Positions 201 through 42,108 of a DNA stretch of 44,752 bases are shown in pieces. The translations under genes were made by a program, and so were the position numbers. A model generated the notes under the pieces. The model was not told the DNA's origin and searched no databases. It saw nothing but the letters and a program-made list of their open reading frames with translations. The stretch covers positions 1 through 44,752 of the forward strand of contig DAOUWZ010000001.1 in the NCBI GenBank assembly GCA_030666865.1, read 5' to 3'. The DNA comes from a bacterium (GTDB lineage Bacteria; Patescibacteriota; Patescibacteriia; S139-126). Each line of letters opens with the position of its first letter. The stretch's first letter is position 1.

Positions 201-356
201 CTAAGAAACAGTAATAATAGGTTTTATTTCATCTTTAATATATTTATCTTTGAACACCTTGCCTCTATATTTTGGTGTCCATACAATGTGGTATTTACAA
301 TCATAAAAGCAATGTGATAACGTACGTATAGTACGTCTTTGTGTTTTTAATGACAT
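201..356 (-). pseudogene. Truncated IS200/IS605-family transposase TnpA (N-terminal fragment, about 51 aa)
   Basis: Translation MSLKTQRRTIRTLSHCFYDCKYHIVWTPKYRGKVFKDKYIKDEIKPIITVS* matches the TnpA Y1 N-terminus (YHIVWTPKYRGKVF) but stops well before the catalytic Tyr region; the ORF-track start at 440 is an over-extension into the element end. Confidence 0.8.
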
Positions 357-360
357 ACTA

Positions 361-399
361 AAAAACCACCTCCTTTCTAGACCAAAGTTGGTGGTTTTT
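361..399 (-). promoter_or_regulatory. Hairpin upstream of the TnpA start that buries its Shine-Dalgarno (IS200-type translational control)
   Basis: AAAAACCACC (361-370) pairs with GGTGGTTTTT (390-399); on the minus strand the arm contains AAAGGAGGTGG just before the ATG at 356. Confidence 0.55.
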
Positions 400-428
400 A
401 TATTACTAGCTTCGCTGTTAAACGTAGA

Positions 429-445
429 CCCCAGTTGCACTGGGG
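429..445. repeat. IS200/IS605-type subterminal hairpin CCCCAGT-TGC-ACTGGGG
   Basis: Perfect 7-bp stem with 3-nt loop, next to the transposase fragment. Confidence 0.55.
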
Positions 446-465
446 GTTTATAGATTAATAACTCG

Positions 466-599
466 CCCCCCTGATAAGGGGGGTTGGGGGGTTATTCATC
501 TTAATTAAACCCCCTTTCCTGCCTGCCGGTCATCGACTCCGAGATGAGCCTCGTGCTCAGACTCGAGGAGCAGACAGGAATTCCCCCTTATCAGGGGGA
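466..599. repeat. Nested palindromic repeat cluster
   Basis: CCCCCCTGATAAGGGGGG (466-483) and CCCCCTTATCAGGGGG (583-598) flank an interrupted CCTGCCTGCCGG...CAGACAGG element with further small palindromes inside. Confidence 0.7.
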
Positions 600-15757: not shown

Positions 15758-15784
15758 TAGTGACAGAGCGGTGCTCTGTCACTA
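15758..15784. repeat. Palindromic repeat family TAGTGACAGAGC-NNT-GCTCTGTCACTA, copy 1
   Basis: 12-bp perfect stem with 3-nt loop; related copies at 22647 and 42074. Confidence 0.75.
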
Positions 15785-22634: not shown

Positions 22635-22646
22635 AATCTAATGTAC

Positions 22647-22667
22647 GGACAGAGCAATGCTCTGTCC
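22647..22667. repeat. Palindromic repeat family (G/T)GACAGAGC-NNT-GCTCTGTC, copy 2
   Basis: GGACAGAGC-AAT-GCTCTGTCC between purB and purE. Confidence 0.7.
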
Positions 22668-22688
22668 CTACGCATTAATGATTAACAA

Positions 22689-25813: not shown

Positions 25814-25884
25814 AAATCCTAAATTCTAATATCCCTGCCTGCCGGCAGGCAGGGATATTAAAATTTGTTTAGAATTTAGGATTT
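25814..25884. repeat. Composite inverted repeat containing the CCTGCCTGCCGGCAGGCAGG core
   Basis: Perfect 34-nt palindrome TAATATCCCTGCCTGCC/GGCAGGCAGGGATATTA (25827-25860), flanked by AAATCCTAAATTCTAA (25814-25829) and TTAGAATTTAGGATTT (25869-25884). Confidence 0.8.
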
Positions 25885-36948: not shown

Positions 36949-37103
36949 TAATTAGTCACTATATAAAAATAGATTTTATTAAAAATTATTATTTTTGGCT
37001 AAATTTTGTGCATACCTGCCTGCCGGCAGGCAGGTATGCACAAAATTTATCATAAAACTAACCAATTTTAATTTAACAATCATTTTTATATAGTGACTAA
37101 TTA
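36949..37103. mobile_element. MITE-like hairpin element with 22-bp TIRs and a 50-bp central perfect palindrome
   Basis: TAATTAGTCACTATATAAAAAT (36949-36970) / ATTTTTATATAGTGACTAATTA (37082-37103); center TAAATTTTGTGCATACCTGCCTGCC|GGCAGGCAGGTATGCACAAAATTTA (37000-37049). Confidence 0.65.
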
Positions 37104-38792: not shown

Positions 38793-38869
38793 GGGCGTGT
38801 AGCTCAGCTGGTTAGAGCGCTTCACTGATAATGAAGAGGTCGGAGGTTCGAGTCCCCCCACGCCCACCA
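38793..38869 (+). tRNA. tRNA-Ile (GAT)
   Basis: GGGCGTG acceptor pairs with CACGCCC; anticodon loop CTGATAA; encoded CCA. Confidence 0.95.
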
Positions 38870-38893
38870 TCCTTCGCACATGTGCGAAGGATG
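38868..38893. repeat. 26-nt perfect palindrome starting at the tRNA-Ile CCA
   Basis: CATCCTTCGCACA|TGTGCGAAGGATG. Confidence 0.8.
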
Positions 38894-39023: not shown

Positions 39024-39128
39024 GCCGAGGTAGCTCAGTTCCCGCTATGCAGCGGGACAGGATCCGAGCAGTGGACTGAAAATCCACGTGTCGGCAGTTC
39101 CCTGCCTGCCGGCAGGCAGGAATTCTGC
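39024..39128 (+). pseudogene. Degenerate tRNA-Phe (GAA) interrupted by two palindromic insertions in D-loop and T-loop, 3' acceptor lost
   Basis: Relative to the intact tRNA-Phe at 39197: D-loop carries TCCCGCT-ATGC-AGCGGGA... (39040-39057), T-loop carries CCTGCCTGCCGGCAGGCAGG (39101-39120), and CCTCGGCACCA is absent. Confidence 0.85.
39101..39120. repeat. 20-nt perfect palindrome CCTGCCTGCCGGCAGGCAGG inside the degenerate tRNA-Phe
   Basis: Exact core also at 25834-25853 and 37015-37034. Confidence 0.9.
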
Positions 39129-39196
39129 ATCTTATAAATCAAATTTTATATCCTTAATATATATTGCTAAAATAAATATTTTTACTTTCTCATGAC

Positions 39197-39271
39197 GCCG
39201 AGGTAGCTCAGTGGTAGAGCAGTGGACTGAAAATCCACGTGTCGGCAGTTCAATTCTGCCCCTCGGCACCA
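39197..39271 (+). tRNA. tRNA-Phe (GAA)
   Basis: GCCGAGG/CCTCGGC acceptor; anticodon loop CTGAAAA; encoded CCA. Confidence 0.95.
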
Positions 39272-39293
39272 TGAGAAAGTAAAAATAAATTAT

Positions 39294-41222: not shown

Positions 41223-41297
41223 GGCCTGGTAGCCAAGCGGTAAGGCAGAGGTCTGCAAAACCTCTATACGGGGGTTCGAATCCCCCCCAGGCCTCCA
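41223..41297 (+). tRNA. tRNA-Cys (GCA)
   Basis: GGCCTGG/CCAGGCC acceptor; anticodon loop CTGCAAA; encoded CCA. Confidence 0.95.
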
Positions 41298-41335
41298 TTC
41301 CGCGGAGCGGAATGTCCTGAGCGTAGTCGAAGGGC
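41296..41335. repeat. Palindrome plus repeat directly after tRNA-Cys
   Basis: CATTCCGC-GGA-GCGGAATG (41296-41314) followed by GTCCTGAGCGTAGTCGAAGGGC (41314-41335), a relative of the purL insertion. Confidence 0.75.
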
Positions 41336-41997: not shown

Positions 41998-42073
41998 AAT
42001 AAATTTCTAAATTAAATACAAAAATGCTACCATTAAAGGGTGGTATTTTTGTAAATATAATTAAATATCGTAA

Positions 42074-42094
42074 TGACAGAGCAGTGCTCTGTCA
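42074..42094. repeat. Palindromic repeat family TGACAGAGC-NNT-GCTCTGTCA, copy 3
   Basis: TGACAGAGC-AGT-GCTCTGTCA just upstream of polA. Confidence 0.75.
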
Positions 42095-42108
42095 CTACAA
42101 ATTTATAC

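Follow-up and report, generated by a model that had tools for sequence, protein, structure and literature searches.

The damaged copy of tRNA-Phe that lies beside the intact gene in this 44,752-nucleotide stretch of a patescibacterial genome (the window) is probably the leftover 5′ piece of a tRNA gene that was invaded by a small homing-type GIY-YIG nuclease element. The first-pass annotation had described a duplicated tRNA gene struck by stray palindromes; for this simple picture we found no support, the copy being instead a partial relic like those found alongside tRNA-associated GIY-YIG genes. The anatomy of the locus is set out in Table 1.

Table 1. Parts of the tRNA-Phe relic, the neighbouring intact gene and its flanking repeats (window positions)
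Feature	Position	Strand	Evidence or remark
tRNA-Phe relic, tRNA positions 1-16 (acceptor 5′ strand, D-stem 5′ side)	39024..39039	+	identical to positions 1-16 of intact tRNA-Phe
D-loop palindrome TCCCGCTATGCAGCGGGA plus CAGGATCC, 26 nt replacing GGTA	39040..39065	.	direct reading; single copy in genome
tRNA-Phe relic, tRNA positions 21-55 (anticodon arm to T-loop 5′ half)	39066..39100	+	35/35 identical, BLAST E 3.6e-12
T-loop palindrome CCTGCCTGCCGGCAGGCAGG, 20 nt, clean insertion without target duplication	39101..39120	.	30 exact genome copies
tRNA-Phe relic, tRNA positions 56-63 (T-loop 3′ half, T-stem 3′ side)	39121..39128	+	end of relic
AT-rich spacer, 68 nt, without ORF (a GIY-YIG ORF occupies the equivalent place at other loci)	39129..39196	.	
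Inverted repeat around intact tRNA-Phe, left arm (ATTTTTACTTTCTCA)	39177..39192	+	16-bp match with downstream arm
Intact tRNA-Phe (GAA)	39197..39271	+	ARAGORN; Rfam 74.5 bits
Inverted repeat around intact tRNA-Phe, right arm (TGAGAAAGTAAAAATA)	39272..39287	+	

Much of what had been read from the locus at first pass was borne out. The retained parts (tRNA positions 1-16, 21-55 and 56-63) are identical to the intact gene, with 35 of 35 bases matching in the longest of them, and the T-loop insertion is a clean one of 20 nt whose flanks are tRNA positions 55 and 56. The D-loop insertion is likewise real, although the size given for it (about 20 nt) was not; read directly, 26 nt replace 4. The 3′ part is missing, as had been noted: after tRNA position 63 the sequence is unrelated, and the 3′ acceptor strand and CCA are absent. 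Neither ARAGORN nor Rfam (at the gathering score) called the copy, while both called its neighbor, which is the only full tRNA-Phe that BLAST found in the genome. No intron family was detected in the window by Rfam at the gathering score.

Relics of this kind are not peculiar to tRNA-Phe. Using all ARAGORN tRNAs as queries, followed by spliced alignment with shuffled controls, we found a partial same-strand self-copy near 20 of the 39 tRNAs of the genome, with 5′ parts mostly upstream and 3′ parts mostly downstream (our genome-wide statements are based on searches and on selected stretches of the draft genome, which comprises 55 contigs). Over all loci examined, 126 flanks scored at least 12, compared with a single shuffled flank. 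Polarity is almost complete: of the 76 upstream relics, 62 have their start in the first 8 nt of the tRNA and 1 extends to its 3′ end, and of the 50 downstream relics, 42 extend to the 3′ end and 1 has its start at the 5′ end. Palindromes occur in the D-, anticodon- or T-loop of the relics, which as a rule break off close to where an arm ends. Certain insertion sites recur, namely, that of TCCGCCAGYTGGCGGA after GCTC in the D-loop of the Asn, Arg and Thr relics and that of a CCTGCC palindrome directly before GAGC in the D-loop of the Arg and Asn relics. Preference for loops in general is of moderate strength: 68 insertions out of 76 lie within 1 nt of a loop, versus 56.4 expected (p = 0.0008). 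Because loops form much of a tRNA, the notion that insertion is strictly confined to them is weakened, and the pattern is better described as insertion at a small number of sites that recur in conserved loops of the tRNA.

Complementary arms around the intact tRNA are a further feature associated with relics. Near-perfect inverted repeats of 12 to 18 bp extend the acceptor stem of some intact tRNAs, and 9 of 10 such tRNAs have relics. Among the tRNAs wrapped in this way are tRNA-Phe itself (window 39177-39288), the tRNA at L134 (G009), the tRNA-Trp of C3 and the tRNA-Leu of C33. Separately, we noted a 142-nt tRNA-like gene (L103; G000:C51:1994-2135) with a very long variable region and an unusual anticodon loop, CTACAAA; CCA is not encoded, and a terminator-like hairpin comes next.

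The palindrome in the T-loop belongs to a repeat, as the first-pass annotation had proposed. There are 3 exact copies of the 20-mer in the window (0 expected) and 30 in the genome, which contains 64 copies if up to 2 mismatches are allowed in the 18-mer core; the reversed pattern, used as a control, gave 0 matches. Its distribution in the class is patchy, with copies in 52 of 192 genomes and bursts of 9 to 39 copies in some, and two other genera of the same family have 0 to 1 copies versus the 30 found here. Flanks of the repeat copies show that the 20-mer also sits inside the loops of other tRNA relics of this genome. To that extent, the view that repeated palindromes entered a tRNA gene is supported, but chance strikes on a spare duplicate are not. 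The D-loop insert was also considered as a repeat family and was rejected, being single copy in the genome.

Other palindromes in the genome have features of their own. The 20-mer lies at the exact center of longer palindromes at 37000-37049 (50 bp, perfect) and 25821-25866 (46 bp) of the window, and two further genomic copies have common GAGGCTGAATGC arms. A second palindrome family, with GACAGAGC..GCTCTGTC arms, is present in 3 copies in the window (15758-15784, 22643-22671, and 42070-42098). Palindromes of the form CAT...ATG start at the CCA end of tRNA-Ile, tRNA-Cys, and one tRNA-Met (window 38868-38893 and 41296-41314; tRNA-Met of C42).

At other tRNAs of this genome, the interval between relic and intact tRNA holds a small ORF, and these ORFs encode GIY-YIG proteins (PF01541 above the cut-off). 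GIY-YIG genes number 22 in the genome, and for 11 of the 22 a tRNA is found no more than 400 bp away (p = 2e-11, binomial). The usual order is a 5′ relic with loop palindromes, then the GIY-YIG ORF, which starts shortly after the relic, and then the intact tRNA; it was found at Gln, Glu, Tyr, Trp, Arg(TCT), Ser(GGA), Ser(CGA) and Asn (at Asn, two in tandem). Residues at four catalytic-type positions (Y5, Y16, R26, and E62) are invariant in 10 aligned proteins, and some of the ORFs are damaged (e.g., at Glu and Ser(CGA)). Two features of a free-standing GIY-YIG homing endonuclease were found at these loci: a domain with catalytic-type residues, and a gene beside its putative target and outside any intron or intein. 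Judged by domain and location, the tRNA-linked genes are likely to belong to the homing endonuclease class. A phage origin was considered and rejected, the matches being weak (near 35 to 40% identity).

Several observations nevertheless count against the GIY-YIG explanation. Many relics of this genome have no adjoining GIY-YIG gene, and the tRNA-Phe locus is itself without the ORF; with a spacer of just 68 nt between relic and tRNA, there is no intervening gene. In addition, both Phe inserts are single palindromes without duplication and are not of the double-hairpin type described below. On the GIY-YIG explanation, the Phe locus, in which the ORF is absent, would be a decayed or non-autonomous case.

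Relatives within the class show what the locus looks like with and without the insertion. The order Ile-Phe-Pro is common in the class, and the Ile-Phe gap, which is 327 nt here, is only 18 nt in a genome of the same family (G001) and in G035; the insertion here is therefore derived. In both genomes, the Phe locus is empty. The same architecture is seen at tRNA-Phe in another family with the ORF present (L137). At the tRNA-Phe of G044, it includes a palindrome in the D-loop, together with a GIY-YIG ORF and a leader of about 43 bp that is repeated. It also occurs on both sides of tRNA-Phe in G043 and on both sides of tRNA-Ile in G009.

The association extends to other phyla. When genomes, one per species, were scanned with only one 85-aa protein as the query, the search yielded, by protein similarity alone, 80 loci from Patescibacteria, Kiritimatiellota, Lentisphaerota, Cloacimonadota, Omnitrophota and others. 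In this sample, which was seeded with one tRNA-linked protein and, because that protein was the only query, leans towards relatives of the tRNA-Arg element, a tRNA lies within 600 bp of the GIY-YIG gene at 71 of 80 loci (the nearest tRNA being on the same strand), and a relic is present at 54 of 80. Two orders were observed, either relic, ORF and intact tRNA, or intact tRNA, ORF and 3′ relic. In many of the relics, the T-loop contains a 38-nt double hairpin, which sits precisely at TT[CG]AA, with the two bracketed bases repeated on the far side. The double hairpin consists of two 18-nt hairpins around GTCATNCGAC and GTCGNATGAC; where the dinucleotide at the site is CA, CA is repeated and TG forms the spacer between the hairpins. 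The 2-nt duplication was present in all 18 of the 38-nt inserts counted. Ser(CGA) tRNAs have an alternative site, CT[CG]AA in the anticodon loop, and a double hairpin with a short flanking duplication is also found in the tRNA-Ser(CGA) relic of the present genome. A pattern search that was blind to GIY-YIG genes recovered 7 T-loop double hairpins from 380 genomes of the phylum (control matches, 0). A close same-strand tRNA accompanies 6 of the 7, and a GIY-YIG gene is present at 2 and absent from 5; relics without the ORF are therefore common. A pattern taken from part of a double hairpin gave no matches in the loci compared.

One sequence of events could connect these features. The GIY-YIG protein would cut a tRNA gene at a conserved loop (mainly, across the phyla sampled, at TT[CG]AA of the T-loop), a step on which the fixed site and 2-nt duplication of the hairpins bear indirectly, and repair from an element-bearing tRNA locus would copy in, and so spread, the ORF. 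If the element carries or copies in enough tRNA sequence, one complete tRNA would come to stand beside the nuclease gene, and the remaining piece would stay behind as a truncated relic. Presumably, a hairpin or double hairpin is laid down at the cut, capping the relic at its break point, and the working tRNA may in some cases be the incoming one. Such an invasion accounts for the loop palindromes without many independent strikes on a spare gene.

Movement of this kind finds some echo in the proteins and in the relics themselves. The protein of the tRNA-Arg element shares 73% identity with a protein from Cloacimonadota located at a tRNA-Ser, and the tRNA-linked GIY-YIG proteins within this genome are, when aligned, mostly 36 to 46% identical to the first of them. 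On the protein tree, which is poorly resolved, tRNA isotype labels change as often as shuffled labels do, and lineages of elements specific to one isotype were rejected on these grounds; the side of insertion keeps some signal on the same poorly resolved tree. The 3′ relic of one locus (L247) matches the working tRNA-Ser of a same-family genome at every one of 21 nt and has 6 differences from its own working tRNA, as would be expected if the working tRNA had arrived with the element. L245, like L247, fits a native remnant with a foreign completing part; at the Phe locus, relic and intact tRNA are identical. A broader proposal, to which we would give slightly less than an even chance, is that these genes form a widespread selfish GIY-YIG class that breaks essential tRNA genes at their most conserved loop and supplies a working replacement tRNA (a break-and-rescue drive). 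Each cut would be marked by a hairpin or double hairpin, and the elements would move between isotypes and phyla, with host tRNA genes being replaced by foreign ones.

Alternatively, tRNA-Phe may have been duplicated for unrelated reasons, with mobile palindromes, perhaps moved by a Y1 (RAYT-like) transposase, entering the tolerant loops of the spare copy. The REP/RAYT palindromes and the Rickettsia palindromic elements are likewise short, are repeated and enter both genes and intergenic DNA, and the 20-mer is, as REP sequences are, a multicopy extragenic palindrome; its patchy presence in the class and its insertion here without duplication would suit such an origin. The genome has two full Y1_Tnp genes, in addition to a shorter remnant of a Y1 (IS200/REP-type) transposase gene at window 201-491 (minus strand). 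However, the hairpins within 1 kb of both Y1_Tnp genes differ in sequence, so that these genes are without flanking cognate palindromes and a RAYT origin of the palindrome is unsupported. Unlike REP/RAYT and Rickettsia elements, the palindromes described here are tied to tRNA relics, and no RAYT gene with matching palindromes was found. Moreover, a spare gene should also yield full-length copies and stem insertions, and this account leaves unexplained both the polarity of the relics and the GIY-YIG genes between relic and tRNA. We consider it unlikely.

A functional role for the relics is a slim prospect. They might serve as RNAs in their own right, e.g., as tRNA-like leaders controlling nuclease or tRNA expression, the palindromes being added helices. 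The arms do remain foldable, ORFs begin shortly downstream of the relic, and where stem pairs differ on both sides, 14 still pair versus 1 that does not. Paired differences, however, are equally expected if relic and working tRNA represent different tRNA alleles, single-sided changes are mostly pair-breaking (25 broken, 15 kept), and many relics have no ORF. That tRNA genes were simply duplicated in tandem and then decayed, the proximity of GIY-YIG genes being secondary, seems to us highly improbable; some relics lack an ORF, and the relic here is identical to the intact gene, but this would explain neither why 71 of 80 independent GIY-YIG loci are near a tRNA nor the fixed insertion sites with 2-nt duplications. 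An integrase-type island at a tRNA att site finds no support either, given that no gene stands in the 68-nt interval, that the duplicated part is 5′, not 3′, and that elsewhere the interval holds a GIY-YIG ORF. Finally, we give almost no weight to chance similarity (E = 3.6e-12 for the 35-nt core) or to an assembly chimera. The genome is a draft of 55 contigs and rich in short repeats, but the relic is internal to a 110,707-bp contig, and a chimera is made very unlikely by the return of the same arrangement at many tRNAs of this genome and in many independent assemblies of unrelated ones.

If invasion by a GIY-YIG element is the correct reading, the pattern would explain the broken self-copies that surround tRNA genes in these genomes. 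It would also mean that tRNA genes are replaced horizontally and that tRNA annotation should expect a new type of pseudogene, and the sharply defined T-loop site with its 2-nt duplication makes a cutting assay straightforward. GIY-YIG elements that sit at bacterial tRNA genes and appear to leave hairpin-capped pieces span many phyla; in the open-licence literature we found no earlier description of them and none of a tRNA-inhabiting GIY-YIG family.

Parts of the pattern have parallels elsewhere. SegB of phage T4 is a free-standing GIY-YIG homing endonuclease that targets an intergenic tRNA region (PMC2988022), and it shares with the loci described here a GIY-YIG ORF between tRNA genes that is neither intron nor intein. 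SegB is phage-borne, however, and tRNA relics have not been described for it, whereas the proteins here are chromosomal and about 85 aa long. The rRNA genes of CPR bacteria contain non-intron insertions with GIY-YIG genes, mostly at the top or base of stem-loops (PMC11270868). In both cases, GIY-YIG genes of CPR bacteria are associated with genes for structural RNAs, but the rRNA inserts are sparse and no replacement copy is reported for them; tRNA is not mentioned in that study (PMC11270868). As for the hairpins, yeast GC clusters, which are flanked by AG or ACT (PMC4478555), and the mitochondrial double-hairpin elements of Allomyces (cited in PMC4478555) have in common with the relics short GC-rich hairpins and short direct repeats at the insertion site. 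What sets the bacterial relics apart is a double hairpin at a fixed tRNA-loop site beside a nuclease gene.

In overall plan, the loci resemble the mobile ORFs (mORFs) of fungal mitochondria, which enter a gene and bring with them a substitute for one of its ends, as in Allomyces atp6 and in Glomus atp6, atp9, cox2 and nad3 (PMC3630166); atp9 in Armillaria is a further case for comparison (PMC6506933). In both the fungal and the tRNA loci there is an endonuclease ORF, a working gene completed by a duplicated part and, opposite, a truncated remnant. This combination of working gene, endonuclease ORF and truncated remnant was found at other loci; the Phe locus has the gene and the remnant only. 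The fungal mORFs differ in occupying mitochondrial protein-coding genes, whereas here the targets are bacterial tRNA genes, either end of the tRNA may be involved, and the remnant contains hairpins. The tRNA loci would thereby provide a bacterial, tRNA-based counterpart both of fungal mORFs and of the double-hairpin elements, whose movement is an old question.
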